Positions 44,123 to 64,000 of a stretch of DNA of 64,000 nt are shown piece by piece. The notes beneath the pieces are model-generated. The model saw nothing but the letters and a program-made list of their open reading frames with translations, did not search any database and was not told the origin of the DNA. The position numbers and the translations under genes are program-made. Positions within the stretch are counted from its first letter, which is position 1. Every line of letters begins with the position of its first letter. Origin of the DNA: Conexibacter sp. DBS9H8 (GTDB lineage: Bacteria > Actinomycetota > Thermoleophilia > Solirubrobacterales > Solirubrobacteraceae); contig NZ_CP097128.1 in NCBI RefSeq assembly GCF_023330685.1, positions 310,001-374,000 on the forward strand. Reading direction: 5' to 3'.

Positions 44123-44153
44123 GCGGCGCCTGCAGAGGTCGCGCGGCGCCTGC
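44123..44153. promoter_or_regulatory. Direct repeats upstream of 3-hydroxyacyl-CoA dehydrogenase gene
   Basis: Two exact copies of GCGGCGCCTGC at 44123 and 44143 are spaced 20 bases apart, about two helical turns. They end 11 bases before the -10 box and overlap the expected -35 region, so a dimeric regulator could bind. Confidence 0.4.
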
Positions 44154-44164
44154 CTCCGCTTGAG

Positions 44165-44170
44165 TAGACT
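44165..44170 (+). promoter_or_regulatory. -10 box of 3-hydroxyacyl-CoA dehydrogenase gene
   Basis: TAGACT lies nine bases before the ATG at 44180, so the leader is absent or nearly so. Confidence 0.45.
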
Positions 44171-44179
44171 CGCGGCCTC

Positions 44180-45031
44180 ATGAACGTTGTCAACGGTGGC
44201 GTTGGCGTAATCGGCGCCGGCACGATGGGAGCTGGAATCGCCTATGTGTTCGCGGCGGCCGGTTTCGAGACGTTCGTCGTGGAGCCCGACGACGAACGCG
44301 CTGCGGCGCTGCTTCGCACAGTGGCCACACAGGGCGCAGCCGGTCACGCACGCGGGAAGCTCAGTGCCATGCGGCTCGCGGCGCTGCCGTGCGCGGTGCG
44401 TCACCTTCGCACGGTCGGCGCACTGCCGGACGGTTTGGAGCTGATCGTCGAGTCGGTCCCCGAGCGACTGGAGCTCAAGCGCGAGGTGCTGGCCGCTGCC
44501 CTTGAGCGGCGCCCCGCCCTCCTGGCGACGAATACCAGCTCGCTCTCGATCGACGCGCTCGCGGCAGATCTCGCGAACCCGGCGGCACTGATCGGCATGC
44601 ATTTCTTCAACCCCGTGTGGGCACTGCGGCTGGTGGAACTGGTGCGCGGCGCGGAGACCCCTGACCGCGGGGTGGCCGCGGCTCAGCGGCTCGTCAGCGC
44701 AATCGGCAAGGAGGCTGTGGTCGTTCGCGACGTACCCGGGTTCGCCACCAGCAGACTTGACCTGATCGCCGCACTCGAGGCGATGCGGATGGTCGAGTCG
44801 GGAGTCGCCTCCGTGCAGGATATCGACCGAGCGGTGACCCTTGCATACCGGCACCCCGTCGGACCGCTCCGCCTGTCCGACATCGTCGGTCTCGATGTTC
44901 GGTTGGACATCGCCGAATCGCTCTCCAGCGTCTACGGGGAGCGGTTTGCCGCGCCCCAGATCCTTAGGGCGAAGGTCGCCGCCGGCGAACTGGGGGAGAA
45001 GAGCGGACGTGGGTTCTATGAGTGGTCGTGA
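44180..45031 (+). CDS. 3-hydroxyacyl-CoA (3-hydroxybutyryl-CoA) dehydrogenase
   Basis: A 283-residue NAD(P)-dependent enzyme that oxidises 3-hydroxyacyl-CoA to 3-ketoacyl-CoA. The Rossmann motif GVIGAGTMGAGIAYVFAAAG, LIVESVPERLELKREVL, the family signature LATNTSSLSIDAL and the catalytic GMHFFNPVWALRLVEL with the His are all present; PGFATSRLD and SGRGFYEWS complete the C-terminal domain. It is the stand-alone Hbd/PaaH type without a hydratase fusion. It opens the catabolic island and probably works with the CoA ligase that follows. Confidence 0.93.
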   Translation: MNVVNGGVGVIGAGTMGAGIAYVFAAAGFETFVVEPDDERAAALLRTVATQGAAGHARGKLSAMRLAALPCAVRHLRTVGALPDGLELIVESVPERLELKREVLAAALERRPALLATNTSSLSIDALAADLANPAALIGMHFFNPVWALRLVELVRGAETPDRGVAAAQRLVSAIGKEAVVVRDVPGFATSRLDLIAALEAMRMVESGVASVQDIDRAVTLAYRHPVGPLRLSDIVGLDVRLDIAESLSSVYGERFAAPQILRAKVAAGELGEKSGRGFYEWS

Positions 45032-45049
45032 GGAGTGTCGTCAACACAG

Positions 45050-45078
45050 TTGCTGATAGCCCGCGGTCGGGCTAAGCT
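45050..45078 (+). promoter_or_regulatory. Promoter of acyl-CoA synthetase gene with palindrome in spacer
   Basis: TTGCTG (45050) and TAAGCT (45073) are 17 bases apart. A perfect palindrome, AGCCCG-CGGT-CGGGCT at 45058-45073, fills the spacer. Bound protein would block RNA polymerase; the same palindrome as RNA could terminate the upstream gene. Confidence 0.5.
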
Positions 45079-45128: not shown

Positions 45129-46688
45129 ATGGGCAGCGATCCAACAGCTGACTGGACGCTGGCCGGTGTCCTGCGGGACCTCTCGACCGAGCGCCCCGAC
45201 CATGAGGCCTTCGTCTCCGGTGACCGGCGGCTGACCTTCGGCGGCCTTCACGCGCGGAGCTCGCGGATCGCCAACGCACTGATCAACGCCCATGTCGAGC
45301 CGGGTGATCGGGTGGCGGTACTCGTCGGAAACGGCATCGAGTTCTTCGAGGTCGCTTTCGGCGTCAGCAAGGCCGGCGCGACCATGGTCGCGCTCAACTG
45401 GCGACTGTCAGCGCTCGAACTCGCGGCGATCCTTGCGGACGCCCGACCATCGCTGCTGGTCGTCGATCCGGAGTTCGCGGCAAAGGTCCCGCCGGTGAAC
45501 GAGCGGGCCGCGAAAATGCAGGTTGTGACACTCGGACCCGAATATGAGGCCTGGCTGGCGGCATCCCGGCCCGAGGATCCGTGTGTGTCCTCCGCTCCGG
45601 ACGACGTGATGCTGGTGCTTTACAGCTCTGGCACGACCGGCCGCCCCAAGGGGGTGATGCTGACCAACGCCAATCTTGCCTACATCGAGGTGATGGCCAG
45701 AGAGCTGTTCCGGATGACGCCGGACTCGGTGCATCTCGTCGTCGCACCCCTGTTTCACATCGGTGGAGCCGGAACTGGACTGACAACCACCACGCTTGGC
45801 GGTCGGACGATCGTCCTGACCGAGGTGAAGGCCGATGACGTGCTCGAGACGATCGAGCGCGAGCGCGTCACGCATGCGTTCTTCGTCCCGGCGGTGATCC
45901 AGCGGCTTATCGAGTCTCCGCAGGCCCGCGAGCGTGACCTGTCAAGCCTCCGCTACATCGCCTACGGCGGGGCACCGATGACCGAAACGCTCCTGAGCCG
46001 GGCTCTGGACACCCTCGGATGTGGATTCATCGGGTGTTATGGCATGACAGAGACGGCCGGCACAGTGATCGCCCTCCCTCCCGAGGATCACCTCCCGGAC
46101 GGCGAGGCGGTCCGACTTCTGCGCTCGGTCGGTAAAGAGCTGCCTTGGCACGACGTGCGGGTCGTCGATCTTCTCACCGCGGAGGAGGCAGCGCCCGGCC
46201 AGATCGGTGAGATCTGGGTCCGGTCGCCGATGAACATGAAGGGATACTTCAACCAGCCAGACGTGACCGCCCGTGCGCTCACGGAAGGCGGCTGGGTCCG
46301 AACCGGCGACGGCGCCTACCGCGACGAGGACGGCTACTTCTACCTCACCGACCGAATCAAGGACATGATCATCTCCGGAGGAGAGAACATCTATCCGGCA
46401 GAAGTGGAGAACGTTCTCTCGGCCCACCCGGACGTCGCCGAAGCGGCCGTGATCGGGGTCCCCCATGACAAATGGGGCGAGACCGTCAAGGCGATCGTCG
46501 TGATCAGGCCCGGCGGCGCGGCCCAACCAGAGAAGCTGATCGCCTTCACCCGAGAGCGGCTCGCTCACTACAAGTGCCCGACCTCGATCGACTTCATCGC
46601 CGAACTTCCTCGCAACCCCTCGGGCAAGGTCATCAAGAAGGTGTTGCGCGATACCTACACCCAGTCGCTCACTCCGAGTGCCTCGTGA
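45129..46688 (+). CDS. Acyl-CoA synthetase (AMP-binding, FadD-like)
   Basis: A 519-residue enzyme that activates a carboxylic acid with ATP and CoA. Core motifs: P-loop LVLYSSGTTGRPKGVMLTNA, FIGCYGMTETAGTVIALPP, the ATP-contacting WVRTGDGAYRDEDGYFYLTD, hinge DRIKDMIISGGENIYPAEVE, and the C-terminal catalytic Lys in PSGKVIKKVLR. It has an excellent ribosome-binding site (GGAAGGAG) and a leader of about 45 bases. The chain length or structure of the acid is not readable. The next gene (BKACE) overlaps its stop (GTGA). Confidence 0.93.
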   Translation: MGSDPTADWTLAGVLRDLSTERPDHEAFVSGDRRLTFGGLHARSSRIANALINAHVEPGDRVAVLVGNGIEFFEVAFGVSKAGATMVALNWRLSALELAAILADARPSLLVVDPEFAAKVPPVNERAAKMQVVTLGPEYEAWLAASRPEDPCVSSAPDDVMLVLYSSGTTGRPKGVMLTNANLAYIEVMARELFRMTPDSVHLVVAPLFHIGGAGTGLTTTTLGGRTIVLTEVKADDVLETIERERVTHAFFVPAVIQRLIESPQARERDLSSLRYIAYGGAPMTETLLSRALDTLGCGFIGCYGMTETAGTVIALPPEDHLPDGEAVRLLRSVGKELPWHDVRVVDLLTAEEAAPGQIGEIWVRSPMNMKGYFNQPDVTARALTEGGWVRTGDGAYRDEDGYFYLTDRIKDMIISGGENIYPAEVENVLSAHPDVAEAAVIGVPHDKWGETVKAIVVIRPGGAAQPEKLIAFTRERLAHYKCPTSIDFIAELPRNPSGKVIKKVLRDTYTQSLTPSAS

Positions 46689-47500
46689 GCGTCGCGATTC
46701 TCACCGCAGCGCTGACCGGTCCGATCGCCGGCAAGGCGGACAATCCCAACCTGCCGACGAGCCCGGAGGAGATCGCGGCAGACGCCAAGGCAGCATGGGA
46801 GCAGGGTGCGAGCATCGTCCACATCCACCTCCGCGACGGTCAGGGGCGGCCCACCGCCGATCTTGACGTAGCACGCCGCGTGGTCGGACTGATCGGCGAA
46901 GTGTGCCCCGCCCTGATCCAGCTCTCAACCGGCGTCGGCCTCGGTGTGCCGCTCGCAGCGCGCGCCCAACTCGTGGAGACCCGCCCGGCGATGGCGACAC
47001 TCAACGTCTGCTCGATGACGTTCAATGATGCCCAGTTTCTCAACCCGCCAGACGGCGTCCGCCGGCTCGCTGCCCGTATGCGCGAGCTCGGCGTCAAGCC
47101 CGAGCTTGAGCTCTACGACACCGGGCACGTGGAGATGGCGCTCGCGCTGTTCGAGGAGGATCTGCTCGAGGCGCCCCTCCAGTTCTCCCTTGTCCTCGGC
47201 GTTCGCGGCGGTATGCCCGCGACTGCGGATAGCATCGTCCACCTCGTTCGCCGCCTGCCGCCTGATGCGGTTTGGCAGGCGATCGGTATCGGCCGGCACA
47301 ACCTGACGATGACGGCGATCGGGCTGGCCATGGGCGGTAACGCAAGGACCGGTATGGAGGACACGTTGATGCTCCGACGCGGCGTGCCGGCTCCAGGCAA
47401 CGCGGCGCTCGTGACGCGTCTCGCCGACGTGGCACGAGCCCTTGAGCGTCCGGTCGCCGACGTCGAACAAGCGCGAAGCATCCTCGGCCTGTCCGACTGA
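46685..47500 (+). CDS. BKACE (DUF849) beta-keto acid cleavage enzyme
   Basis: A 271-residue TIM-barrel enzyme of the Kce/BKACE family, which condenses a beta-keto acid with acetyl-CoA and splits it to acetoacetate and a new CoA ester. Signs are VAILTAALTGPIAGKADNPN and LPTSPEEIA at the start, the zinc-binding ASIVHIHLRDGQGRPTADLD, QLSTGVG, LELYDTGH and IGIGRHNLTMTAIGLAMGGN. It is translationally coupled to the CoA ligase, suggesting that a beta-keto acid is an intermediate of this pathway. The starting GTG gives the family N terminus. Confidence 0.88.
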   Translation: MSVAILTAALTGPIAGKADNPNLPTSPEEIAADAKAAWEQGASIVHIHLRDGQGRPTADLDVARRVVGLIGEVCPALIQLSTGVGLGVPLAARAQLVETRPAMATLNVCSMTFNDAQFLNPPDGVRRLAARMRELGVKPELELYDTGHVEMALALFEEDLLEAPLQFSLVLGVRGGMPATADSIVHLVRRLPPDAVWQAIGIGRHNLTMTAIGLAMGGNARTGMEDTLMLRRGVPAPGNAALVTRLADVARALERPVADVEQARSILGLSD

Positions 47501-47555: not shown

Positions 47556-48326
47556 CTACCAGCGGGTGATGCCCCCGTCGACGAGCAGTTCCGAGCCGGT
47601 GCAATACGACGCGGCGTCGCTCAGAAGGAACACGGCCGGCCCCACAAGCTCGCTTGGTGTCGCCATCCGCCGCATGGGGATGTCGTCGAGAAAATCGTCG
47701 AGCGTGCGCGCCGTCTGAACGCCTCGTGCCATTCCCGTGCGCACGTAGCCAGGGCTGAGCACGTTGACGCGGATACCGCGGTCGACCCACTCAATCGCGA
47801 GGCTGCGTGATAGCTGGAGGATTCCCGCTTTGCTCGCGTTGTAGTGGATCTGGTTGATGCCACGGTTGACCAGCGTGCCGGAGATGGAACCGACATTGAC
47901 GATCCGGCCACCGCCGTTACGGAGCATCGCCCGGCCCTCGGCTTGGCAGCTGAGAAAAACCCCGGTCAGATTGACGTCGATCAACGCCTGCCACGTCCCG
48001 AGTTCCATCTCCTCGGCCGGCGCGTTGCTGTGAATCCCTGCGCAGTTAACGGCTGAGCTCAGCAGCCCCAACTCCGACTCGACGGTGGCAACGGCTGCCG
48101 CGAGGGAGTCGGGGCTTGTGACGTCGGCGGAGAGCGCGACCGCGCCCCTTCCCATCGCATGGATCCGAGCGGCGGTGTCGTCCAGATGCGTGGACGGACG
48201 ATCGAGACAACCGACATCTGCGCCCGCCTCAGCGAGGCCGACCGCGATCTCAGCTCCGATCCCACCGCCCGCGCCGGTGACGAGGGCCGTCGACCCGTCG
48301 AGGCGGAAGCTTGCTGATGTCAGCAT
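47556..48326 (-). CDS. SDR family oxidoreductase
   Basis: A 256-residue classical short-chain dehydrogenase. Cofactor motif GSTALVTGAGGGIGAEIAVG, an Asp after beta-2 (GCLDRPS) suggesting NAD(H), NCAGIHS in place of NNAG, catalytic Ser in VNVGSISGTLV and Tyr-Lys in HYNASKAG. The C-terminal GSELLVDGGITRW is typical. It probably oxidises or reduces a hydroxy or keto intermediate of the island. It is on the same strand as the ABC importer genes but separated from them by a hairpin. Confidence 0.9.
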   Translation of the reverse strand: MLTSASFRLDGSTALVTGAGGGIGAEIAVGLAEAGADVGCLDRPSTHLDDTAARIHAMGRGAVALSADVTSPDSLAAAVATVESELGLLSSAVNCAGIHSNAPAEEMELGTWQALIDVNLTGVFLSCQAEGRAMLRNGGGRIVNVGSISGTLVNRGINQIHYNASKAGILQLSRSLAIEWVDRGIRVNVLSPGYVRTGMARGVQTARTLDDFLDDIPMRRMATPSELVGPAVFLLSDAASYCTGSELLVDGGITRW

Positions 48327-48386: not shown

Positions 48387-49574
48387 CTACTTGCCCCAGA
48401 GCTTCTTGAACTGCGCCTGGTAGTTCGGATTGTCGGTCGGGAACACAGTGCTCGACGTCGCAGCGGGAATGTTGTGGTACTCCTTGGCCCAGATCACTGG
48501 CGGGCCACTGTTCTCGTCGGGCGCGGTGCTCTGACCTGTGAAGAGGCGAGCGAGCGCGTCAGCCACCTGCCAGCCGTTCTCGTTGTAGTCAACGGGCGCC
48601 GTCGCCGTCCGCACGCCAGCCGCTGCGGCTTGAACCCCGGCGATCGTCGGTGCCTCCGAGTAGGTCTTCGGCAGCGTGATACCGGCCCCCTTCGCGGCGC
48701 TCGCCAGGTCCTCACCAACCTGTTCATAGGAGAGGAAGAGCGCGTTGACCCCCGGGTTGGCACGAAGGAAGTTGACGATGTCAGTTCCGTCCGTCGTTCC
48801 CAAACTGGTTGGCGCAATCGTCGTCGAGATGATCTTGCACGCCGGACAGACCTTCTTCAGCTGCGCGTTGTAGGCGGCGGTGTAGGCCGCGATGATTGGG
48901 TAGCCGCTGAGGATCACGTCGGCGACGGTCCCCTTACCACCGAGGTCGACCGTGGTCTTGTCGGCGAGTGCTTGGGCCAAGGCATCGTCGAACCCGACGC
49001 CATCGATCTCCAACGGCGCGGTGCCCGAGGTGGGATCTGTCCCGTAGAGCTCGATCAATGGGATGTGCGCGGCCTTCAGCGCCGCGGCCTGATGGGGATA
49101 CTCAATCGTCGGCAGCGCTGTGACGACGACCGCAGCAGGATGGTCGTTGACAATCTGTGTCATGTCATTCTGGACGAGCTGTGGGGTCGGTTCAGCGGGG
49201 GTGTACTCCTTCACCCTCCAACCCAGAACTGCCGCCGCCTGCTTGAACGCGTTGGTCGCGTATGTGCATCCAGCCGGTCCGCAGTTGAGGATGTCGACGA
49301 GCTTGCCGGTCGGGATCTTCTTGCCAACCGGGGTCGTCACGGGAATCTGGGTCGGGTTGGTGATGTGCGCGCTGACGAACGCCTTGGCCTCCGCCAACCC
49401 TGAATTGCCCGTCGAGGACGCACTGCTGGACGATGTCGAACTGCTCGATGCGCTCGGTGAACTGCTGGAACTCGGCGTGCTGGCGGAACTCCCGCAGGCC
49501 GCCACGGCGAGGGCCAGCGACACAGCTACTGCTGCCGCGGCCGGCACCGACGATCTGAACCTAAATGTACTCAC
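48387..49574 (-). CDS. ABC importer substrate-binding lipoprotein (CUT2-like)
   Basis: A 395-residue lipoprotein (lipobox AVAACGSS) with a Ser-rich linker of about 30 residues and a periplasmic-binding-protein-I fold. KLVDILNCGPAGCTYATNAF, HPAAVVVTALPTIEYPHQAA and GVNALFLSYEQVGEDLASAA are the recognisable strands; two Cys pairs (CGPAGC and CPAC) could form disulfides. Family members bind sugars or autoinducer-2, but the context is aromatic/acyl catabolism, so another ligand is possible. GTG 49574 is preceded by GAGAGAGG. It is the last gene of the importer operon. Confidence 0.87.
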   Translation of the reverse strand: MSTFRFRSSVPAAAAVAVSLALAVAACGSSASTPSSSSSPSASSSSTSSSSASSTGNSGLAEAKAFVSAHITNPTQIPVTTPVGKKIPTGKLVDILNCGPAGCTYATNAFKQAAAVLGWRVKEYTPAEPTPQLVQNDMTQIVNDHPAAVVVTALPTIEYPHQAAALKAAHIPLIELYGTDPTSGTAPLEIDGVGFDDALAQALADKTTVDLGGKGTVADVILSGYPIIAAYTAAYNAQLKKVCPACKIISTTIAPTSLGTTDGTDIVNFLRANPGVNALFLSYEQVGEDLASAAKGAGITLPKTYSEAPTIAGVQAAAAGVRTATAPVDYNENGWQVADALARLFTGQSTAPDENSGPPVIWAKEYHNIPAATSSTVFPTDNPNYQAQFKKLWGK

Positions 49575-49637
49575 GGACGTGCCTCTCTCCACTACTGCGT
49601 TGATTTGATTGGTCTGACTTGTGGCGGTATCGCTGGA

Positions 49638-50714
49638 TCACTCTGCGGGTGCGGGCCGCCGAACGCGTCGCGATCGAACCCAGGCCCGCGCCTGGACTGC
49701 CCGTTCGAAACTGGAGGCTCCCAAGGCCACCAGCAGGACAACGCCGCTGAACATGCTCTGCGTCCACGGTGCCCCCCCGACCAGCACGAGACCGGTCGTG
49801 CCCGTCCCGAGCAGGATCACCGCGATGATGGTGCCCCAGGCATTGAACCGACCCCCAAACTGGGTTGCCCCGAGGAACGCCGCTGCAAAGGCGTTCAACA
49901 GATAAGGCGGACCGATACCGGGTGACCCCGAACTGACACCGGAGGCAAGCAGGATGCCGGCAATCGCCGCGACGGTGCCGGAGACGATCAGTGTCGCGAA
50001 CTTGATTCGGCCGGTCTTGATTCCGGCCAGCACCGCACCGCGCTCGTTGAAGCCGATCGCGTAGATCCGACGCCCGAGCACGGTGTACTTCTGGATCACA
50101 TACAGCACGATGGCGACGAGAAGCATCAAGATCACTGGGAGCTCGATACCGGCGACGCTGGTCGTCGCGATGTTCCCGAACGAGCCATTCAGCGCATTGC
50201 CGGTGATCTGCTGGTCGTGGGTCACCAGTGAGATCGCCGCCACCATCAACGATCCCGTCGCCAGAGTTCCGATGAATGAATCGATCTTCGCCGTGACGAC
50301 GACAAGGCCATTGAGGAGACCGATGAGGAGGCCGAGCGTGAGGGTGATCAGGATTGCCGGGACGACCGCCACGCCCTTGTTGACAAGCAGCCAGGCGATC
50401 ACCACGTTGGCCAGCCCCATCGCATTACCGATCGAAAGATCGAATACCTGTGCCGAGAGCGGCACCACGAGGGAGAGCGCCATCAGGCCAGCGACAGCGT
50501 TCTCATTGAGCACCGACTTGACCGTGATCCAGGTTGGAAATGTCGACGGCGCGAGGATCGAGAAGACGATGATCAGCGCGATCTCCACGTACACGACGCC
50601 GATGTTGGCGAAGCCCAAGTGCCGACGCCAAGACGGGCGGCTCTCCCCGTCCGGCGCGAGGGGGCTCGTTCCGGCGGCCCCGGGACCCTCACTGACACGA
50701 TCAACCGTGCTCAC
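49638..50714 (-). CDS. ABC importer permease (RbsC-like)
   Basis: A 358-residue inner-membrane permease with about nine helices. Family markers are VVPLSAQVFDLSIGNAMGLA, LIGLLNGLVVVTAKIDSFIG, YTVLGRRIYAIGFNERGAVL and LNAFAAAFLGATQFGGRFN. In RbsC-type importers a homodimer of this protein takes both permease positions. GTG 50714 overlaps the ATPase stop by 14 bases and follows a GGAGGG site, so I chose it over the ATG at 50741. Confidence 0.9.
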   Translation of the reverse strand: MSTVDRVSEGPGAAGTSPLAPDGESRPSWRRHLGFANIGVVYVEIALIIVFSILAPSTFPTWITVKSVLNENAVAGLMALSLVVPLSAQVFDLSIGNAMGLANVVIAWLLVNKGVAVVPAILITLTLGLLIGLLNGLVVVTAKIDSFIGTLATGSLMVAAISLVTHDQQITGNALNGSFGNIATTSVAGIELPVILMLLVAIVLYVIQKYTVLGRRIYAIGFNERGAVLAGIKTGRIKFATLIVSGTVAAIAGILLASGVSSGSPGIGPPYLLNAFAAAFLGATQFGGRFNAWGTIIAVILLGTGTTGLVLVGGAPWTQSMFSGVVLLVALGASSFERAVQARAWVRSRRVRRPAPAE

Positions 50715-52332: not shown

Positions 52333-52333
52333 C

Positions 52334-55911: not shown

Positions 55912-55940
55912 ATTATCGCGATCCCCGGCGATCGCGTCAA
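55912..55940 (-). promoter_or_regulatory. Promoter of acyl-CoA dehydrogenase operon (leaderless)
   Basis: TTGACG (55940-55935) and GATAAT (55917-55912) are exactly 17 bases apart, and the GTG start follows after six bases. Confidence 0.65.
55917..55936. promoter_or_regulatory. Operator-like palindrome in acyl-CoA dehydrogenase promoter
   Basis: CGCGATC and GATCGCG flank a six-base centre. The palindrome fills the -35/-10 spacer. It shares the CGATC/GATCG half-site core with the palindrome upstream of tetR. Confidence 0.5.
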
Positions 55941-55948
55941 CGCCGGTG

Positions 55949-55977
55949 CTGACAAAGGTGTTCGGCCCCATTAAGCT
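55949..55977 (+). promoter_or_regulatory. Promoter of cyclase-family operon (leaderless)
   Basis: CTGACA (55949) and TAAGCT (55972) are 17 bases apart; six bases separate the -10 from the ATG at 55984. It is back to back with the acyl-CoA dehydrogenase promoter, eight bases away. Confidence 0.6.
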
Positions 55978-55983: not shown

Positions 55984-56742
55984 ATGCGAATCGTCGACCT
56001 CTCAGCTCCGATCGAACCAAGTCCACCGGAGACTCCGGCGTTCCAGCGCACACTGATCGACTACGTGAGTCACGCAGAAGGCGCCGCGGAGATCGAGCAA
56101 CTCCACGGCGTCCCCCGGCAGCTCTTACGAGACGGGGAAGGCTGGACCCGTGAAACCCTGACCCTTGGTACCCACAACTCGACACACGTCGACGCACCGT
56201 GGCATTACAACTCGCTGATCGGCGGCGAGCGGGCCGAGACGATCGACGAACTGCCTCTGGAATGGTTCTTCGGCGCCGGTGTCGTCCTCGACTTCGGTGA
56301 CCGAGCCGACGGCGAGGTGATCGAGGCCCCCGATCTCGTCAATCGACTGGCGGCCATCGACCACGATCTTGCTCCTGGGGAGATCGTCCTGATCCGGACC
56401 GACCGCGACGCGTTCTATCGCGATGCCGACTACATCAATCGCGGTCCGGGAGTTTCAGCTGCCGCGACCCACTGGCTCTATGACCGTGGGATCCGAGTGA
56501 TGGGGATCGACGCCTGGGGTTGGGACCGTCCCCTCCCCCTCCAGGCCGAGGAGGCGCTGCGAGAGCAGCGTCCCGGAATCTACTGGCAGGCCCACCAGAC
56601 GGACCTGCGCTACTCACAGATCGAACGGCTCTTCGGCCTCAGCCAACTCCCACCTGACGGCTTCAGCGTGGCCTGCTTTCCGCTGCGGGTGGCCCGCGCG
56701 AGTGCGGCACCCGCTCGGGTGGTGGCGATCCTGGATGACTGA
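55984..56742 (+). CDS. Cyclase-family metal-dependent hydrolase (kynurenine formamidase-like)
   Basis: A 252-residue hydrolase of the cyclase/KynB family. The metal-binding HxGTHxDxPxH pattern appears as GTHNSTHVDAPWHYNSLIGG, with RIVDLSAPIEPSPPETPAF at the start and GIRVMGIDAWGWDRPL later. Members hydrolyse formamides, lactones or cyclic amides using zinc or manganese. No kynurenine pathway gene is nearby; in this setting opening of a ring or ester made by the monooxygenase is more likely. It overlaps the next gene by eight bases. Confidence 0.88.
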   Translation: MRIVDLSAPIEPSPPETPAFQRTLIDYVSHAEGAAEIEQLHGVPRQLLRDGEGWTRETLTLGTHNSTHVDAPWHYNSLIGGERAETIDELPLEWFFGAGVVLDFGDRADGEVIEAPDLVNRLAAIDHDLAPGEIVLIRTDRDAFYRDADYINRGPGVSAAATHWLYDRGIRVMGIDAWGWDRPLPLQAEEALREQRPGIYWQAHQTDLRYSQIERLFGLSQLPPDGFSVACFPLRVARASAAPARVVAILDD

Positions 56743-57703
56743 CAGCGTGACGGGCACAGGCGAGCCGCACCCGGACGTGGCGAGGCTCGTGGAGCAGTTC
56801 CGAGCGGCCGGCGTTCCGAGCTACGACCAGATCGGTGTCCTCAAGGCCCGTGCGATCCTGGAGAACGTCACGCGCTCGCAGCTGCCCGCGATCACGGTCG
56901 CCGCAGTGCGAGACATCCTCATCCCGGGATCCGCCGGTCTGCTCCCGGTGCGGATCTACGATCCCGATCCCAGTCGCCCGCTCCCGTTGGTCGTCTATTT
57001 CCATGGCGGAGGCTGGGCGCTCGGTAGCGTGCGCGCAGCCGATCGTCCCTGCCGTCGTCTGGCGGTGGCCGGTAATTGCGTGATCGCCTCCGTCGAATAC
57101 CGGCGCGCGCCGGAGACGCGGTTCCCAGGCCCCCTCGAGGATTGCGTGGCAGCCGTAGAGTCGCTTGTCGCGCGCGCGGCCGATCTCGGCGCCGACCCGG
57201 ACACCGTCGTACTACTCGGCGACAGCGCCGGAGGCAACCTCGCGGCCGCCACATCAGGTGATCTGGCCGGGCGCGCCGACGGTCCGCGACTGGTTGGCCA
57301 GATCCTGCTCTACCCCTGTCTGGCTCCCGCCCGCAACAGTCCGTTCGCCTCCTATTGCGACCGCGCAAACGGGCCGCTGATGTCCCGCCGGGAGCTCGAG
57401 TGGTTCTGGGATCTCTACCTCGCCACCGATGCCGACCAAACGGACCCACGCGCCGCGCCGCTGGCAGCCGAGGACCTCTCCAGCCTGCCTCCCACCACGA
57501 TCATCCTGGCCGAACTGGATCCGCTCCGTGATGAGGGCCTCGCCTACGCTGAGCGGCTGCGCGCAGCAGCGGTGCCAGTGACGACCATCGTGTACGCCGG
57601 AGCCGCGCACGGATTCTGGTGGTTGGACGCCGAGCTGAGCCAGGCGGCAGAGTTGACCGACACGCTCGCTGGCATGCTCCGAGCGATCGGTCAGCGGGTC
57701 TGA
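56735..57703 (+). CDS. Alpha/beta hydrolase, HSL (hormone-sensitive lipase) family
   Basis: A 322-residue esterase. The oxyanion HGGGW is in VVYFHGGGWALGSVRAADR, the nucleophile Ser in LLGDSAGGNLAAA, the Asp in LAELDPLRDEG and the His in AGAAHGFWWL. VIASVEYRRAPETRFPGPLE is the family segment. HSL enzymes cleave short esters and lactones. It is coupled to the cyclase-family gene and faces the monooxygenase gene (13-base 3' overlap), so it may cleave the ester that a Baeyer-Villiger enzyme produces. Confidence 0.92.
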   Translation: MTDSVTGTGEPHPDVARLVEQFRAAGVPSYDQIGVLKARAILENVTRSQLPAITVAAVRDILIPGSAGLLPVRIYDPDPSRPLPLVVYFHGGGWALGSVRAADRPCRRLAVAGNCVIASVEYRRAPETRFPGPLEDCVAAVESLVARAADLGADPDTVVLLGDSAGGNLAAATSGDLAGRADGPRLVGQILLYPCLAPARNSPFASYCDRANGPLMSRRELEWFWDLYLATDADQTDPRAAPLAAEDLSSLPPTTIILAELDPLRDEGLAYAERLRAAAVPVTTIVYAGAAHGFWWLDAELSQAAELTDTLAGMLRAIGQRV

Positions 57704-59379
57704 AGACCCTGTGCCGCGAGGGCGGCAGCATCGGCGGAGCTGGTCTCTGATCCGGAGGTGCGTTCCTTCAGCGCAAAGCCGTCGTACCCGTCCGCGACAA
57801 CGCGCTCCAGGGTGCGGCGATAGCCACGGACCCCGCCGACGTAGGGTGTGAACACCCGAGGTTTGGAGGCGACATCGTCACCCATGTAGTAGGAACGGGC
57901 CTTGGGGTAGAGCGTCTGCTCGGCACGCTCGCGCACGTGCTCTACCCATCGGCGCTCAGCTTCGGCCTCGGCTTCGATCTCCTCGATCCCATGATCCCGG
58001 GCGTGGACGAGCAACGCCGCAAGCCAATCAACATGCTGCTCGATCGACAGCAGGACGTTGCTGAGGAGCGATGGGCTCTGGGGGCCGGCGATGATGAACA
58101 TGTTGGGGAAGCCGTGAACGCCGAGCCCGAGGTATGTCTGCGGGCCATCGGCCCACTTCTCGACGAGGGTTCGCTCCCCCGAACCGATGATCTCAGGGCG
58201 CAGCAGGGACCCGGTCATCGCGTCGAACCCGGTGGCGAAGACGATGATGTCGAGGTCGTGATGGCCGCCGGCAGTAAGGATCCCGGTAGCGGTGATCGCG
58301 TCGATCGGATCCTTGCGGATGTCGACGAGTTCGACGTTGTCGCGATTGAAGGTCTCGAAGTAGCCACTGTCGACCGGCGGCCGCTTGGTGCCGAACGGAT
58401 GATCGCGCGGCATCAGCTTCTCGCGAACGACAGGGTCGCGAACTTTCTCGGCGATCTTTTTGCGCACGAACTCCGAGACGTGGTCGTTGGCCTCCTGACT
58501 GATCAGCAGGTCTGGGAAGGCGAGAACGAAGCCGAAGCCCGCCGTCGGCCAGGCCTGCTCGAAGGTCTGCTCACGTTCCTCTGGGGTCGCCTCAAGCGCG
58601 GAGGTCTTGTTCGGCGTGAAGCCGAGGCCGCTCGGTGTGTCCAGCGCTTTGCGCCGCCGCTCGCGGTAGCCCGCCTTGACCTGCTCGTCGCGTTCATCGG
58701 TGATCGGCGCGTTGTTCGCCGGAATGCTGTAGTTCGGGGTCCGTTGAAAAACCGTGAGGTGCTCGGCCTGCTGCGCGACGATCGGGATCATCTGGGTTCC
58801 AGACGAGCCGGTGCCGACCACGCCCACGCGCTTGCCGGCAAACTCGACCCCTTCCTGCGGCCAGCGGGCGCTGTGGTAGATCGCTCCCGTGAAGTCGTCT
58901 GTACCCGGGAGATCCGGTGCCTTCGTCGTCGAGAGTTGTCCGACGGCGAGGATCAGGAAGCGGCTGATCCAGTGACCGCCGGTGTCGGTCTGCACGGTCC
59001 AGAGATGCGCCTCATCGTCGTAGGCGGCCCGCCGGACCTGCTGACTGCAATGGATGTCGGAGCGCAGACCAAAGCGATCGGCGACATGGTTGATGTAGCG
59101 AAGAATTTCAGGCTGGGTCGCGTAGCGCTCGCTCCAGCGCCACTCCTGCTCGAGCTCCTCTGAGAATGCATACGAGTAATCGAAGCTTTCAACATCGCAG
59201 CGGGCGCCAGGGTAGCGATTCCAGTACCAGACGCCGCCGATGTCATCTGATTCGTCCAAGACGGCAACGGTAAAACCGCACTCACGCAGCGTGTACAGCG
59301 CACGGAGCCCGGCGAAACCGGCTCCTACGACGACCACATCCACGTAGGGAACTTCAGCGGGTTCGGTTTCAACGCTCAT
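57691..59379 (-). CDS. Baeyer-Villiger-type flavin monooxygenase
   Basis: A 562-residue FAD/NADPH monooxygenase. The N-terminal Rossmann motif is VVVVGAGFAGLRALYTLREC. The Baeyer-Villiger fingerprint FxGxxxHxxxW is present as FTGAIYHSARWP, and the second dinucleotide fold as KRVGVVGTGSSGTQMIPIVA. Sequence style is that of cyclohexanone/cyclopentadecanone monooxygenases, which convert ketones to esters or lactones with O2. TATGCT lies six bases before the ATG. The adjacent hydrolases make a ketone-to-ester-to-acid route plausible. Confidence 0.93.
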   Translation of the reverse strand: MSVETEPAEVPYVDVVVVGAGFAGLRALYTLRECGFTVAVLDESDDIGGVWYWNRYPGARCDVESFDYSYAFSEELEQEWRWSERYATQPEILRYINHVADRFGLRSDIHCSQQVRRAAYDDEAHLWTVQTDTGGHWISRFLILAVGQLSTTKAPDLPGTDDFTGAIYHSARWPQEGVEFAGKRVGVVGTGSSGTQMIPIVAQQAEHLTVFQRTPNYSIPANNAPITDERDEQVKAGYRERRRKALDTPSGLGFTPNKTSALEATPEEREQTFEQAWPTAGFGFVLAFPDLLISQEANDHVSEFVRKKIAEKVRDPVVREKLMPRDHPFGTKRPPVDSGYFETFNRDNVELVDIRKDPIDAITATGILTAGGHHDLDIIVFATGFDAMTGSLLRPEIIGSGERTLVEKWADGPQTYLGLGVHGFPNMFIIAGPQSPSLLSNVLLSIEQHVDWLAALLVHARDHGIEEIEAEAEAERRWVEHVRERAEQTLYPKARSYYMGDDVASKPRVFTPYVGGVRGYRRTLERVVADGYDGFALKERTSGSETSSADAAALAAQGLQTR

Positions 59380-59385
59380 GTTGAT

Positions 59386-59436: not shown

Positions 59437-60372
59437 GTGGAATTGGAGACGCTCATCTACGAGAAGGACGGACGGATCGCAACCGTCACGCTCAACCGGC
59501 CGGAGAAGGGCAACGCCCTCTCGCGGAAGCTGCGGGACGAGCTTGACCTGGTCATGGACGACCTCGATCTGGATGACGACACGCGTGTGCTGATCATCAA
59601 AGCCGCCGGCAACCACTTCAGCACCGGCTACGACCTCACCGAATTCTCGTACCTGTGGGATGCCGACAGCGCCATCAACGACGTGCAGCGCCGGCCTCAC
59701 CGGCGCTCGCCGGTCTGGTCACGCCGCGAGTTTCATCTCAGCCGGGAGCGCTGGATGCGACTGTTCCGCCTACGCCAGGCGACGATCGGCCTTGCGCACG
59801 GACACTGCATCGCAGGGGGCCTCGATCTGCTCGGCGTGTGCGATGTCGCCTTCTGCGCAGATGACGCGCTGTTCGGGCAGCCCGAGGCCAGGGCGATGGG
59901 CGAGATTCATGTCTTCGGGCTGTGGCCGATCCACCTTGGCATGCGCAAGACAAAGGAGTGGTTGTTCACCGGCGACAACATGAACGGCCTCGAGGCAGCT
60001 GAATTCGGGTTGGTGAACCGGTCGGTTCCGCGGGACCAACTGGAGGCGGTCGGTCGCGCCTACGCCGAGCGGGTCGCCAATGTGCCGCTCGACGCGCTCT
60101 ACTCGCACAAGGAGGTGACGAACCGCTGGTTCGAGGCGCAGGGGATGCACGCCGGCATGGCCGCGGCCAATGACCTCGACGCGATGGGCATCGCCGGTCC
60201 GGCCCTGAACGAGTTCACCGAGATCTGGCGCGAGGGCGGTGTCCGCCCCGCCGTACGGTTCCGCGACCGCGAGTTCAAAGAGCATCGCACCTACTGGGAG
60301 GCCTACCAAGCCTCCCGGAACAACACCAGCACCGGGGGGAAGCCGGGCCCCGGGGGAACCGCAGGCGCGTGA
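59437..60372 (+). CDS. Enoyl-CoA hydratase/isomerase (second crotonase)
   Basis: A 311-residue crotonase, longer than average. The N terminus has ATVTLNRPEKGNALSRKLRD, then AAGNHFSTGYDLTEF as oxyanion hole and GLAHGHCIAGGLDLLGVCDV. An insert of about 45 residues around DVQRRPHRRSPVWSRREFHL precedes the second part, and the catalytic Glu is possibly in GQPEARAMGEI. The C terminus has a long extra helix (REFKEHRTYWEAYQAS). The start is the GTG at 59437, just after a GAGGAGAGG site. It overlaps the next SDR gene by GTGA. Confidence 0.87.
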   Translation: MELETLIYEKDGRIATVTLNRPEKGNALSRKLRDELDLVMDDLDLDDDTRVLIIKAAGNHFSTGYDLTEFSYLWDADSAINDVQRRPHRRSPVWSRREFHLSRERWMRLFRLRQATIGLAHGHCIAGGLDLLGVCDVAFCADDALFGQPEARAMGEIHVFGLWPIHLGMRKTKEWLFTGDNMNGLEAAEFGLVNRSVPRDQLEAVGRAYAERVANVPLDALYSHKEVTNRWFEAQGMHAGMAAANDLDAMGIAGPALNEFTEIWREGGVRPAVRFRDREFKEHRTYWEAYQASRNNTSTGGKPGPGGTAGA

Positions 60373-61136
60373 GCTCATCCGGCCCAAACGCTCACGTGGC
60401 GGTTGTCACCGGTGCCGCCCGCGGCATTGGGGCAGCGATCGCCCGACGGTTGGCTGAGGATGGATACGATGTCGCAGCTCTGGACCTTGATGAAGGCGCC
60501 TGCGAAGAAACCGCGGCCGCGGTCACCGGCTGCGGCCGGCGGAGCGTCGCGGTCGGGGCCGACGTCGGTGACGAAGTAGCCGTCACCCGGGCTGTGGAGC
60601 GAATTGCTGCCGAGTTGGGGCCACCCGTGGCGCTCGTCAACAATGCGGGAATCCAGCGTGACCGGATCCTGTCCAGGATGACCGTCACCGAATGGGAAAG
60701 CGTGATGGCGGTGCACCTGCGTGGCGCCTTTCTCATGTGCCGTGAGACCCAGCGACACATGCGAGAGGCGATGTGGGGCCGGATTGTCAACATCTCGTCA
60801 ACGGCCGCCCTCGGGAACGTCGGGCAGGTCAACTACTCTGCGGCCAAGGCAGGCCTCCAGGGCTTGACCCGGACCCTGGCGATGGAGTTGGGCCGCCACA
60901 ACATCACCGTCAATGCGGTGGCCCCCGGGTTTACGATCACCGACATGACGAGAGGAACAGCTGCTCGCGTTGGGATCGACTTCGATGAGATGGTCGCCAG
61001 CCAGGTCTCCCAAATCGCCGTCGGCCGCGCCGGCGAACCCCAGGACATCGCCCAAGCGGTCTCGTTCTTCCTGGACCCGCGAAGCGGCTTCGTCTCTGGC
61101 CAAGTGCTGTACGTCGCCGGCGGGCCGCGGGGCTGA
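60369..61136 (+). CDS. SDR family oxidoreductase (FabG-like)
   Basis: A 255-residue short-chain dehydrogenase with VAVVTGAARGIGAAIARRLA, the Asp in DVAALDLDEG for NAD preference, LVNNAGIQRDRIL, catalytic Ser in VNISSTAALGNVG and Tyr-Lys in NYSAAKAG, and the FabG-like FLMCRETQRHMREAMWGR. It is coupled by GTGA to the crotonase, so it probably oxidises the 3-hydroxyacyl-CoA produced by hydration. The C terminus ends GQVLYVAGGPRG. Confidence 0.92.
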   Translation: MSSSGPNAHVAVVTGAARGIGAAIARRLAEDGYDVAALDLDEGACEETAAAVTGCGRRSVAVGADVGDEVAVTRAVERIAAELGPPVALVNNAGIQRDRILSRMTVTEWESVMAVHLRGAFLMCRETQRHMREAMWGRIVNISSTAALGNVGQVNYSAAKAGLQGLTRTLAMELGRHNITVNAVAPGFTITDMTRGTAARVGIDFDEMVASQVSQIAVGRAGEPQDIAQAVSFFLDPRSGFVSGQVLYVAGGPRG

Positions 61137-61190: not shown

Positions 61191-61958
61191 ATGGCTCTGT
61201 TCGACCTGACCGGGAAGGTGGCAGTCGTCACCGGCGGAACACGCGGGATCGGAATGATGATCGCACGGGGCCTGCTGGATGCGGGTGCGAAGGTCTACAT
61301 CAGTTCACGTAAGGCCGAGACTGGAAAAGCGGCGGTCGCCGAACTTTCCCCCCACGGCGACGTGATATCGATTCCCGCCGACATCTCGAGCGAGACCGAG
61401 TGCCAACGGCTCGCCGCGGAGGTTGGCGACCACGAGCGCAACCTTCATATCCTGGTCAACAACGCTGGCGCCACCTGGGGCGCTCCCCTTGAGGAGTTCC
61501 CCGCATCTGCGTGGGACAAGGTGCTCGCGCTCAACCTGAAGGCGCCGTTTCTCCTCACCCGGGCCTTCCTGCCGATGCTCGAGACCGCAGCCAGCGCCGA
61601 TGATCCGGCCCGGGTGATCAACATCGGATCGATCGACGGACTGCGCGTGCCCGATCTTGAGACCTACTCATATTCCGCCAGCAAGGCCGGAATCCATCAG
61701 CTCACCCGAGTGCTCGCCAAGCAGCTGGGACCAAGGCACATCACGGTCAACGCGATCGCCCCGGGACCTTTCCAATCGAAGATGACAGCCGCCACACTTG
61801 AGCAGTTCGGCGACATCATCGCGGCGAGATCGCCGCTCGGGCGGATCGGACGCCCCGATGACGTCGCGGGCACCGCCATCTACCTGGCCAGTCGGGCGGG
61901 TGCCTACACGACCGGAGCGATCATCCCGGTCGACGGCGGTATCTGGGCCGCGCACTGA
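61191..61958 (+). CDS. SDR family oxidoreductase
   Basis: A 255-residue short-chain dehydrogenase. KVAVVTGGTRGIGMMIARGL is followed by Ser-Arg-Lys after beta-2 (VYISSRKAET), which favours NADP(H). LVNNAGATWGAPLEEF, catalytic Ser in INIGSIDGLRV and Tyr-Lys in SYSASKAGIHQL are present. ATG 61191 follows a GAGAGAGAGGAAA purine run. It probably reduces a ketone or oxidises an alcohol in the same pathway as the preceding two genes. Confidence 0.92.
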   Translation: MALFDLTGKVAVVTGGTRGIGMMIARGLLDAGAKVYISSRKAETGKAAVAELSPHGDVISIPADISSETECQRLAAEVGDHERNLHILVNNAGATWGAPLEEFPASAWDKVLALNLKAPFLLTRAFLPMLETAASADDPARVINIGSIDGLRVPDLETYSYSASKAGIHQLTRVLAKQLGPRHITVNAIAPGPFQSKMTAATLEQFGDIIAARSPLGRIGRPDDVAGTAIYLASRAGAYTTGAIIPVDGGIWAAH

Positions 61959-61983
61959 GCGGCCGTCGGGCGCGAAAGGTCGC

Positions 61984-62772
61984 TCACATCGACGTCCAGC
62001 CGCCGTCGACCGGGAGAACAGCACCGGTCACATAGCTGGAGGCCGCCTCACTCGCCAGGAACAGCAGCGCGCCGTCAAGCTCGTGACCATGACCGTGGCG
62101 GTTGGACGCCGTGTGGCGCGCCACCCACCTATAGCCACTCTCGTCCGAGAAGAGCTGATCGGTCATCTCGCTGGCGAAGAAGCCGGGAGCGATCGCGTTG
62201 ACGCGGATCCCATAGCGCGCCCACTGGGCTGAAAGCTCACGCGTCAGGTTGATGAGCCCCCCCTTTGAGGCCGTGTAGGACGCCTGTGGGGGACGGCCGA
62301 CCCCGACGATCCCAAGAATCGAGGCGATGTTGATGATCGATCCTGGGGCATCGCGTGAACGCATGTCCCGGGCGACCGCCGCGGCCAGTACGAACGGCGC
62401 CACGAGGTTGACCCCGAGCACCTCACGAAATACCTCCTCGGTCTCCTCAAGCGCCGGCCGGCTCCGCTCGATTCCGGCGTTGTTGACAAGGATGTCGACG
62501 CGTCCGTGCGACCGGATCGCAGCCTGCACCGGGAGTTCGAGATCCTCGCTGCGGCCGAGGTCGCACGCCACGGGAACCGAGCCGTCGAGCTCGGCGGCGA
62601 GGCCCTCCAACCGCTCCAGCCGGCGAGCAACGAGCACGACCCGCGCCCCGGCCGCGGACAGTACCCGAGCGAAGCGCTCCCCCAAACCACTGCTGGCGCC
62701 GGTGACGATCGCGACCTTTCCGTCGAGGCGGAAGATCGCCTCTCCGGACGCGGCCGGCCCGGACTCGATCAT
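61984..62772 (-). CDS. SDR family oxidoreductase
   Basis: A 262-residue short-chain dehydrogenase. KVAIVTGASSGLGERFARVL with VVLVARRLERLE suggests NADP(H); NNAGIERSRPALEE, catalytic Ser in INIASILGIVGVG and Tyr-Lys in SYTASKGGLINL are intact. The ATG overlaps the upstream hydrolase stop (ATGA), so both are translated together. It converges with the previous SDR gene, from which it is clearly diverged, so these are not a recent duplication. Confidence 0.92.
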   Translation of the reverse strand: MIESGPAASGEAIFRLDGKVAIVTGASSGLGERFARVLSAAGARVVLVARRLERLEGLAAELDGSVPVACDLGRSEDLELPVQAAIRSHGRVDILVNNAGIERSRPALEETEEVFREVLGVNLVAPFVLAAAVARDMRSRDAPGSIINIASILGIVGVGRPPQASYTASKGGLINLTRELSAQWARYGIRVNAIAPGFFASEMTDQLFSDESGYRWVARHTASNRHGHGHELDGALLFLASEAASSYVTGAVLPVDGGWTSM

Positions 62773-63728
62773 GCGACGTGCCCGTTGACGGGGAGCCAGC
62801 GCTTCCGCGCTCTCGCGTTGACGAGACTCCACGGCGGCAGCTGAAACCCAACCCCGTCAAGTGCCGCCGTCAACTCAACGGAGCTGACGGTGGAGGCGTT
62901 GGTCCAAACGTCAGAGTGCTCGAGTGCCTCGACGCTGAAGAACTCCTTGACGAGCGCGCCGACGCCGCTCTGCTCATCCAGCACCATCAGGTGGCCCTGG
63001 CCCGGAATGACGCACAGCCGTCCCTGGGGAAGCAGGTGGGTGATCAGCATCGAGTTGGCCACCGGCGTGAGAGGATCGTCATCCCCCGTCAGCACAAGCG
63101 TCGGGCTCTGGATACGGGGAAGCAGGGGCAACCCGCTCCAGACTGCCATGCTCGCGAGCTGTCCGAGGTAACCCCTCCATGGCGGCGACTGGTTGAAGCG
63201 CAGCTCGGCCTGCTCGGCGATCCAGGTCCGATCGTAACGCGCGCGACCGCCAACCAGCGACCCGATTGTCTTGGCGTATGTGGCGGGAGACATGTACCGA
63301 ATCGGCGTCATGATGTTGATCATCGCCTTCACGGGACCCTGCATTGCACCCTGCCCAGGGGTGGTCGAGACGAGCAGGAGCCGTCGGACTCGCTCGGGCG
63401 CGTCGGCCGCGAGCTGCTGAGCGACGACACCTCCCATCGAGTAGCCGAGGACGTCTGCCTGCCCCATCTCGAACTTGTTCATCACCGACACCGCTAGGCT
63501 GGCCACGCGCTTGATCGGCATGGGCAGCCACGGCACGTCAGACTGGCCCGCCCCCGGCAAATCGAACTCAACGATCTGAAAGCCCTCGAGTTCACGCTCG
63601 AGCGACTCCCACATCCCCGTGTGGGCGCCAAGACCGTTGATCAGAAGCAGCGGGTGTCCGTCGCCGACCGCACGCACATGGACCCTCCCTTCAGGGAACC
63701 GCAGCTTGCGGTCAGTGACCGCACTCAT
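62769..63728 (-). CDS. Alpha/beta hydrolase, PHA-depolymerase-like
   Basis: A 319-residue hydrolase. The oxyanion region LLLINGLGAHTGMWESLERE, nucleophile Ser in DVLGYSMGGVVAQQLAADAP, Asp in VLTGDDDPLTPVANS and His in IPGQGHLMVL define the triad. GQADVLGYSMGGVVAQQLA and the later PIRYMSPATYAKTIGSLVGG resemble intracellular medium-chain PHA depolymerases (PhaZ). A C-terminal extension of about 40 residues follows the domain. It may hydrolyse a hydroxyacyl ester or lactone of the pathway. The ATG overlaps the upstream GNAT stop. Confidence 0.85.
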   Translation of the reverse strand: MSAVTDRKLRFPEGRVHVRAVGDGHPLLLINGLGAHTGMWESLERELEGFQIVEFDLPGAGQSDVPWLPMPIKRVASLAVSVMNKFEMGQADVLGYSMGGVVAQQLAADAPERVRRLLLVSTTPGQGAMQGPVKAMINIMTPIRYMSPATYAKTIGSLVGGRARYDRTWIAEQAELRFNQSPPWRGYLGQLASMAVWSGLPLLPRIQSPTLVLTGDDDPLTPVANSMLITHLLPQGRLCVIPGQGHLMVLDEQSGVGALVKEFFSVEALEHSDVWTNASTVSSVELTAALDGVGFQLPPWSLVNARARKRWLPVNGHVA

Positions 63729-64000
63729 GCGACCGCATCCTCAAAGCCGCCCGTCACCATCGTCGACCAGGTGTCGTCGACGAGGTGCGCGAGGATGACG
63801 GTGTCGCGTAACTCGCCGTCGCCGGGATTGCGGAGCTGGTCACGAAGGAGCGCCTCGCCCTCAAAGCCCAGCCGGAGGAACATCTCCACCGCTGACTCAT
63901 TGTCTGACGCGATCGTTACCGTCACCTTCTTATAGCCGTGGTTCACCGCTTCAATCAGCATCGTCCGGGCGAGGACTTTGCCGAGACCCTGGCGTCGGGC
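63725..64000 (-). CDS. GNAT N-acetyltransferase, C-terminal part (cut by window edge)
   Basis: The frame is open to the right edge, giving the last 91 residues. ARRQGLGKVLARTMLIEA carries the acetyl-CoA pyrophosphate-binding Q/RxxGxG loop, and VTIASDNESAVEMFLRLGFE is the typical end of the fold. The acceptor is unknown. Its stop overlaps the hydrolase ATG (ATGA), so it is the first visible gene of an operon with the hydrolase and SDR. Confidence 0.82.
   Translation of the reverse strand, partial: ARRQGLGKVLARTMLIEAVNHGYKKVTVTIASDNESAVEMFLRLGFEGEALLRDQLRNPGDGELRDTVILAHLVDDTWSTMVTGGFEDAVA

Follow-up and report, generated by a model that had tools for sequence, protein, structure and literature searches.

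The analysed stretch, hereafter the window, comprises 64,000 nt of Conexibacter sp. DBS9H8 (contig NZ_CP097128.1, positions 310,001 to 374,000). A preliminary description made from the sequence alone had noted, in its last 20 kb, a possible catabolic island that includes a Baeyer-Villiger-type monooxygenase (BVMO). Gene calling covered the window and the 36 kb that follow it on the contig (coordinates beyond 64,000 are counted on from the window), and the island genes were scanned against Pfam and NCBIfam; all the families named in that description were found at the places given for them. The BVMO was also searched for in genome contigs, the best 80 of 464 relatives being kept, and 26 island proteins were compared with these 80 loci using identity thresholds set for each family.

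The BVMO gene lies at 57691–59379 on the minus strand. Its product carries the sequence FTGAIYHSARWP from residue 163, together with the Rossmann motifs GAGFAG at residue 19 and GTGSSG at residue 189; an FxGxxxHxxxW(P/D) motif plus two Rossmann motifs is what we take to be the fingerprint of type I BVMOs, and the enzyme was assigned to that type. Among proteins of solved structure, the highest sequence scores, over nearly the whole length, were the 630 bits of steroid monooxygenase and the 613 bits of phenylacetone monooxygenase, while cyclohexanone monooxygenases reached at most 471 bits and OTEMO 467. On one side of the BVMO gene are those of a hormone-sensitive-lipase-type esterase or lactonase (HSL; 56735–57703, plus strand; Abhydrolase_3, 233 bits) and of a cyclase-family metal hydrolase (CYC; 55984–56742, plus; PF04199, 121 bits; nearest solved structure, isatin hydrolase; 6 of the 80 loci). 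On the other side are those of the crotonase ECH2, a putative hydratase and possibly a hydratase/lyase (59437–60372, plus; ECH_1, 116 bits), and of two short-chain dehydrogenases/reductases (SDRs) recognised by Pfam: the FabG-like SDR2 (60396–61136, plus; homologues of at least 50% identity in 19 loci) and SDR3 (61191–61958, plus; six loci, and 67% identity to a protein in the cluster of G046, a genome of the same family as the host).

The genes for a beta-oxidation set are distributed over the rest of the island: a 3-hydroxyacyl-CoA dehydrogenase (HCDH; 44180–45031, plus; Pfam 3HCDH_N/3HCDH; near the BVMO gene in 29 of the 80 loci), the acyl-CoA ligase FadD1 (45129–46688, plus; Pfam AMP-binding; 30 loci), the crotonase ECH1 (53143–53916, minus; Pfam; 22 loci) and an acyl-CoA dehydrogenase (ACAD; 54718–55971, minus; Pfam; 30 loci), with a double SnoaL/NTF2-like protein (SnoaL2; 53913–54701, minus; Pfam; 27 loci) encoded between the last two. 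FadD1 is followed by a beta-keto acid cleavage enzyme (BKACE; 46685–47500, plus), which has a 58% homologue in the G046 cluster; it matches PF05853 with 304 bits, yet stays under the cut-offs of all four matching NCBIfam models (best, 279.8 bits against 382). Then come SDR1 (47556–48326, minus; Pfam; homologues of at least 50% in five loci) and an importer of the CUT2 type, made up of a substrate-binding lipoprotein (48387–49592, minus; lipobox LAVAAC), a permease (49638–50714, minus; BPD_transp_2, 115 bits) and a double ATPase (50701–52287, minus; ABC_tran in two stretches). The ATPase and the permease conform to the CUT2 type, while the binding protein scores 30.9 bits with Peripla_BP_4, under the 35.1 cut-off; none of the three subunits reaches an NCBIfam cut-off among the matches listed (for the ATPase, the best 25 of 190). 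A TetR regulator is encoded divergently from the importer (52427–53119, plus; TetR_N and TetR_C_24; these coordinates are those of the longer open frame, the gene caller placing the start at 52565). Two more genes of interest lie just outside the window, those of a second CoA ligase, FadD2 (66534–68282), and of an aldehyde dehydrogenase (69711–71108).

In a BVMO tree of 128 rows, made by a quick method with no bootstrap, the window enzyme and those of 58 of the 80 loci fell into one clade of 64 rows (SH-aLRT 99), which also holds two of the four full-length copies of G046 and the copy of the Sphingopyxis plasmid pSFD01. Proteobacterial rows were nested inside actinobacterial ones with moderate support. 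Far from being scattered in relatives, the island genes remained linked to this clade: FadD2, HCDH or ACAD was found near the BVMO gene in 57 of the 58 clade loci (the exception was L062) and in none of the 22 loci outside it. The linked loci span Actinomycetota, Pseudomonadota and one Acidobacteriota metagenome-assembled genome. Over all 80 loci, FadD2 was present in 43, a thiolase in 16 and ECH2 in 14. Near-complete equivalents of the cluster occur in Nocardioides kribbensis and on pSFD01; when FadD2 of this plasmid was compared with the genome of DBS9H8, one strong match was obtained (605 bits, the next being 270), and this was the FadD2 encoded just past the window. Six loci (L045, L046, L048, L051, L054 and L096) contain a second BVMO with 47–49% identity to that of the window, which suggests two Baeyer-Villiger steps in some versions of the locus.

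A palindrome, TCAAC-N6-GTTGA, was first noticed in the gap between the TetR and importer genes, and then at the start of the BVMO gene. Allowing for one mismatch, it occurs nine times in the window (0.69 times in shuffled sequences), eight of them at or after position 44190. In the 250 bp upstream of the BVMO gene, 20 of the 58 clade loci have an exact copy, a number that rises to 28 when one mismatch is tolerated, and none of the 22 outside loci has either; dinucleotide shuffles of these upstream sequences gave 0.00 and 0.65, respectively. A matrix was built from those 28 sites, none of which comes from the window. At a threshold of 10 bits it detected 12 sites in the 27.6-kb island, where shuffles gave a mean of 0.89 and a maximum of 3, and two in 67.6 kb of flanking DNA. 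Those in the island lie at the start of HCDH (44190–44205, 14.4 bits), between HCDH and FadD1 (45041–45056, 19.0 bits), at the start of the binding-protein gene (49588–49603, 15.1 bits), between the TetR gene and the ATPase gene of the importer operon (52335–52350, an exact palindrome, 17.8 bits), near the starts of ACAD and CYC, inside ACAD as called (55937–55952, 14.9 bits), in the gap between BVMO and ECH2, at the BVMO start (59369–59384, an exact palindrome, 22.4 bits), and at a PhaE-like gene, FadD2 (one mismatch) and the aldehyde dehydrogenase gene. Of the remaining sites, those at 45283 and 53859 fall inside called coding sequences, and that at 52329 overlaps the one at 52335.

The same operator sequence accompanies the cluster elsewhere. 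In N. kribbensis, sites precede HCDH, a thiolase-ACAD-FadD1-SnoaL2-ECH1 group, the aldehyde dehydrogenase gene, BVMO/ECH2 (two sites) and a CUT2 importer. When exact sites were counted genome-wide, those in or beside the cluster made up 4/4 in G046, 3/3 in Klenkia soli, 3/3 in Tsuneonella, 6/7 in N. kribbensis, 3/8 in Brevundimonas sp. Root608 and 4/9 in the genome of DBS9H8; the pattern read backwards, used as a control, occurred 3, 2, 0, 0, 2 and 1 times, respectively. Of the 19 clade loci whose TetR shares at least 40% identity with the window protein, 18 have a site of at least 14 bits, as do 20 of the 39 other clade loci and 3 of the 22 outside, an association that is partly by construction because loci that supplied sites to the matrix were counted too. 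We infer that TetR is the regulator acting at this predicted operator; the operons sharing the operator would be expected to be co-induced. Given the linkage and the operator tests, the grouping of these genes is more than chance. The presence of one operator sequence in both actinomycetes and proteobacteria suggests that the enzymes, the regulator and its control sites share one history across phyla and have probably moved together. Linkage and operator support the earlier proposal that an importer, a BVMO, an esterase, a CoA ligase and beta-oxidation work in a single pathway, but not its confinement to the window, since FadD2 and the aldehyde dehydrogenase gene, both preceded by operator sites, lie outside.

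In other loci, the place that ECH2 has here is taken by a MaoC-like pair. Among the 43 loci with FadD2, ECH2 was found in 14 and the MaoC-like pair in 27; no locus had both, and two (L051 and L054) had neither. This exclusivity cannot be put down to taxonomy alone, as both phyla contain ECH2. Residues D130 and E150 of ECH2 are invariant in 12 aligned sequences, and the window protein is 64–87% identical to those of ten other loci. The copy of Candidatus Frankia californiensis is 85–87% identical, while the BVMOs of the two are only 64% identical; this ECH2 likeness would reflect either unusually slow change or a recent transfer. A ChsH2-type DUF35 protein together with a thiolase-like protein, an aldolase candidate, was present in 16 loci, all of them of the MaoC type. 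An aldolase orthologue of at least 60% identity was found in none of 15 ECH2-type genomes (7 + 8), that of DBS9H8 included, and in all of three MaoC-type genomes, picked because their locus has it. The two loci in which neither hydratase was seen hold the aldolase at 67–68%, while L058, L089 and L090 do not. Similar parts are known from steroid side-chain degradation, where, according to the available part of the source, retro-aldol cleavage uses DUF35 and thiolase-like components (PMC11321319). Some of the related MaoC loci resemble this and bile-acid side-chain cleavage (ChsH1/ChsH2-Ltp2; Shy-Sal) in carrying MaoC, DUF35 (OB_ChsH2_C) and the aldolase candidate; DBS9H8 differs in having ECH2 instead, with no match to an Ltp2-like aldolase in its genome at E 1e-30, and no steroid ring genes were recognised in the island. 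On these sequence comparisons, ECH2 qualifies as a good candidate counterpart of the MaoC hydratase. By analogy with hydroxycinnamoyl-CoA hydratase/lyase, it is hypothesised to replace the aldolase as well.

The importer and the last enzyme of the predicted pathway appear to be exchangeable too. A branched-chain-type binding protein was present in 14 of the 80 loci, a tripartite ATP-independent periplasmic (TRAP) transporter in seven and a CUT2 permease with its ATPase in two. In four clusters, those of G046, pSFD01, Tsuneonella and L091, the BKACE and cyclase genes are neighbours and the thiolase family was not seen (for pSFD01, by annotation). No locus was seen with both enzymes: among the 80, thiolase was found in 16 and BKACE in one, L091, which lacks thiolase. 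Since BKACE recurs beside the cyclase gene in four loci where no thiolase was seen, its role as exit enzyme is plausible, as the preliminary description had proposed. Its uniqueness needs to be corrected: the cluster is no one-off but is widespread, with exchangeable importers. Other differences were seen among the sphingomonad versions. In two of them (L122:1743-10342 and L164:8130-19853) there are additional genes for a luciferase-like monooxygenase, a RibB-like protein and an NAD(P)H-dependent oxidoreductase, suggestive of a further flavin monooxygenase step, of the two-component kind. L122 also contains an amidohydrolase gene (PF04909; 17336-18451) with a FeS_assembly_P partner (PF01883; 16990-17343), and similar-looking pairs are present in the sphingomonad loci L057 and L087. 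The Tsuneonella version has an additional BVMO relative of 634 aa, preceded by an operator.

We favour, with some reserve, a reading in which the island is a TetR-controlled catabolic regulon for an organic acid, probably moving horizontally, whose route runs from the acid to a ketone, through the BVMO and into beta-oxidation. The reactions and their order we infer from the gene families and from what varies between loci. The acid would be imported by the lipoprotein-dependent ATP-binding cassette importer and activated by FadD2. ECH2 would hydrate the acyl-CoA and may also release acetyl-CoA by retro-aldol cleavage, leaving a ketone, which the BVMO would convert into an ester or lactone to be opened by the HSL-type hydrolase. 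The SDRs and the aldehyde dehydrogenase might then oxidise the resulting alcohol to a second acid, for which FadD1, ACAD, ECH1 and HCDH would provide beta-oxidation, the final short units being freed by the cyclase and BKACE here, or by thiolase elsewhere. A route of similar logic, from 3-(4-sulfophenyl)butyrate through a ketone, a BVMO and an ester to an esterase, has been published for Comamonas testosteroni KF-1 (PMC3746432). No ACAD gene was found directly beside FadD2 in the gene maps examined, a feature that would be compatible with an already unsaturated acid. The substrate is probably a carboxylic acid branched at C3 or alicyclic. The ketone, taken earlier to be the imported compound, is probably an intermediate made inside the cell from the activated acid.

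Several observations weigh against this reading, or against parts of it. The 80 loci were picked by BVMO similarity, so that counts among them are not prevalences and the rows are not phylogenetically independent. FadD2 was not seen in 15 of the 58 clade loci, some of which are incomplete, and the HSL-type hydrolase also occurs in 8 of the 22 outside loci, so its link to the clade is unspecific. The operator was not seen near the BVMO gene in 30 of the 58 clade loci, and no strong site was present in 14 of the 21 loci whose importers are of the LIV or TRAP type, most of which have another TetR family. Outside the cluster lie 5 of the 9 exact sites of the DBS9H8 genome (two of these five were inspected, and both fall inside called genes) and 5 of the 8 in Brevundimonas. 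The BKACE proteins of pSFD01, Tsuneonella and L091 are just 29–31% identical to that of the window. Finally, the aldolase candidate was present in 16 of 28 MaoC-type loci, and of the 12 MaoC-type genomes without a local copy, 11 lack an orthologue elsewhere too, while one has it. As the aldolase is missing from many MaoC genomes, the retro-aldol step is not universal and ECH2 is possibly only a hydratase.

The main competitor, which we regard as doubtful though deserving attention, is that a ketone or cyclic alcohol is itself imported, the BVMO acting first and FadD1 and beta-oxidation following, with FadD2 and ECH2 as a side branch. The BVMO, the HSL-type hydrolase and FadD1-ACAD-ECH1-HCDH would alone make a complete route, and this lower set, with no FadD2, is found in all seven TRAP-type loci (L089, L090, L092, L093, L095, L097 and L100), although in L100 the hydrolase was not seen in the part of the locus covered. 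Against this competitor stand the linkage of FadD2 in 43 of the 80 loci and the operator site before FadD2 here, and the TRAP and branched-chain-type importers suggest an acid. A pathway for 3-arylalkanoates, leading through an aryl methyl ketone and an aryl acetate to a phenol, is unlikely. Its model would be C. testosteroni KF-1, in which, as far as the accessible text of the source goes, 3-(4-sulfophenyl)butyrate is converted to a ketone (4-sulfoacetophenone), a BVMO turns this into an ester, and an esterase cleaves the latter (PMC3746432). The logic of C2 removal, ketone, BVMO and esterase matches in that account, and the BVMO of the island is closest to phenylacetone and steroid monooxygenases; both cases would go from a branched acid to a ketone and on to BVMO and esterase, a likeness of scheme, and in the island the BVMO and hydrolase are present while the ketone-forming step is the conjectural part. 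KF-1 differs, in the same partial account, in its aromatic product and its IS1071-framed genes, and the island differs in having beta-oxidation, the cyclase, BKACE, the importer and the TetR operator. Pfam detected neither a ring hydroxylase nor a ring-cleavage dioxygenase among the island genes, and ACAD and BKACE indicate an aliphatic or alicyclic product.

That two unrelated operons, one for a ketone and one for fatty acids, simply lie side by side seems very improbable: upper and lower genes are at times found apart, but both carry one operator sequence, in this island as in N. kribbensis, and their linkage extends to distant phyla. A biosynthetic cluster is scarcely credible. The nearest NCBIfam model for the BVMO is the pentalenolactone enzyme PtlE, at 298 bits and thus far under the 1100 cut-off, and a SnoaL domain is present, but no terpene or polyketide synthase was matched by Pfam among the island genes, and the importer, the CoA ligases and the set for beta-oxidation have a catabolic look.

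Within the acid-to-ketone reading, a specific substrate can be put forward only as a long shot, namely that the regulon is the genetic basis of bacterial use of abscisic acid or a related carotenoid-derived (ionone-type) acid. In Rhodococcus sp. P1Y, abscisic acid gives rise to dehydrovomifoliol, a methyl ketone, and to rhodococcal acid (PMC6460035, and the portions available of PMC9599779 and PMC7996341); its authors suggest, in the accessible part of PMC9599779, C2 cleavage followed by a BVMO, with the enzymes yet to be worked out. These metabolites would fit the gene set described here. FadD2 and ECH2 would remove C2 from the unsaturated, C3-methylated side chain to give dehydrovomifoliol, the BVMO, hydrolase and aldehyde dehydrogenase would lead to the next acid (rhodococcal acid), and FadD1, the cyclase, BKACE and beta-oxidation would dismantle the ring. 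From the sources as available, the cluster could not be linked to the strains concerned: Rhodococcus sp. P1Y and Novosphingobium sp. P6W are not among the best 80 of the 464 BVMO loci. The BVMO was found in 4 of 401 Gordonia-family genomes (E 1e-190; 52–53% identity, none reaching 60%; three candidates per genome) and in 7 of 195 Novosphingobium genomes (E 1e-185; 52–62%; seven candidates per genome), sets that may or may not include the two strains.

The island stands out from its surroundings by composition. Mean gene G+C drops from 0.709 to 0.657 in the island, and G+C at third codon positions (GC3) is 0.90 in the left flank, 0.79 in the island and 0.925 in the right flank; the low-G+C block runs from about 44.2 to about 71.1 kb, past the end of the window. 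The best full-length BVMO match among 27 genomes of the same genus, mostly drafts with at most 13 candidates scored per genome, was 48% identical, compared with 64% for a copy in G046. These differences in composition and identity point to horizontal gain of the island. No empty insertion site was recognised: an MMPL gene adjoins the island and has homologues in six same-genus genomes, and the three of these regions that were compared, in G026, G014 and G011, showed no convincing gene order in common with the right flank. No tRNA gene was found in the window, nor any Rfam family at threshold. Right after the island, at 71.5–76.2 kb (L001:11478-16242), coding is sparse and one encoded protein matches RAMA at 34.0 bits, under the 35.2 cut-off, a picture like that at the edges of mobile DNA.

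Not all the genes of the 20-kb block seem to belong to the pathway. SDR4 (61984–62772, minus) and an alpha/beta hydrolase (62769–63728, minus; TIGR02240, 131 bits, under the 250.6 cut-off) are probably part of another operon. Beyond the window come, in order, a GNAT gene, a PhaC-like gene, the gene of a 124-aa protein, an SDR gene, FadD2, a second GNAT gene and the aldehyde dehydrogenase gene. The stretch between 61984 and 66534 consists mostly of genes resembling a separate, compact polyhydroxyalkanoate (PHA)-synthase-like module, of which 61984-63728 lies in the window and the rest reaches to about 66.5 kb (L001:3725-6534). The PhaC-like protein has the box GYCMGG and scores 221 bits with TIGR01836 (cut-off 365), and the PhaE profile matches the 124-aa neighbour faintly (E 0.026); neither the PhaC score nor the PhaE partner reaches what a class III PHA synthase would have. 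SDR4 has 63–72% homologues beside PhaC/PhaE-like genes in the same genus (L138-L140), and homologues of the hydrolase (30–41%) lie beside PhaC-like genes in L141, L152 and L153. Genes of the PhaC, PhaE, GNAT, hydrolase and SDR4 kinds occur again in same-genus genomes, where the short stretches covered contain no BVMO, and PhaC, PhaE and the first GNAT were found in none of the 80 BVMO loci and the hydrolase only twice, at 25–26%. The module was for these reasons mostly rejected as a part of the pathway. Against a full separation, N. kribbensis has a 48% SDR4 homologue within its cluster, and the PhaE-like gene is preceded by an exact operator site, so a link of the module to the pathway is possible.

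No printed description of the cluster was found among the entries listed in the literature searched, which covers few subscription papers, and we regard it as a new version of the known type of pathway that runs from a ketone through a BVMO to an esterase. Biocatalysis makes much use of type I BVMOs of the phenylacetone/steroid group, and for most of them we know of no established natural role. One clade of these enzymes now has a conserved genetic context, together with a predicted regulator and operator. It has culturable hosts (N. kribbensis DSM 16314, K. soli DSM 45843 and Actinomycetospora chiangmaiensis DSM 45062), and the question of the substrate can now be addressed by reporter induction. 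The mutual exclusivity of ECH2 and MaoC predicts a specific role, and perhaps a new activity, for the ECH2 subfamily of crotonases.

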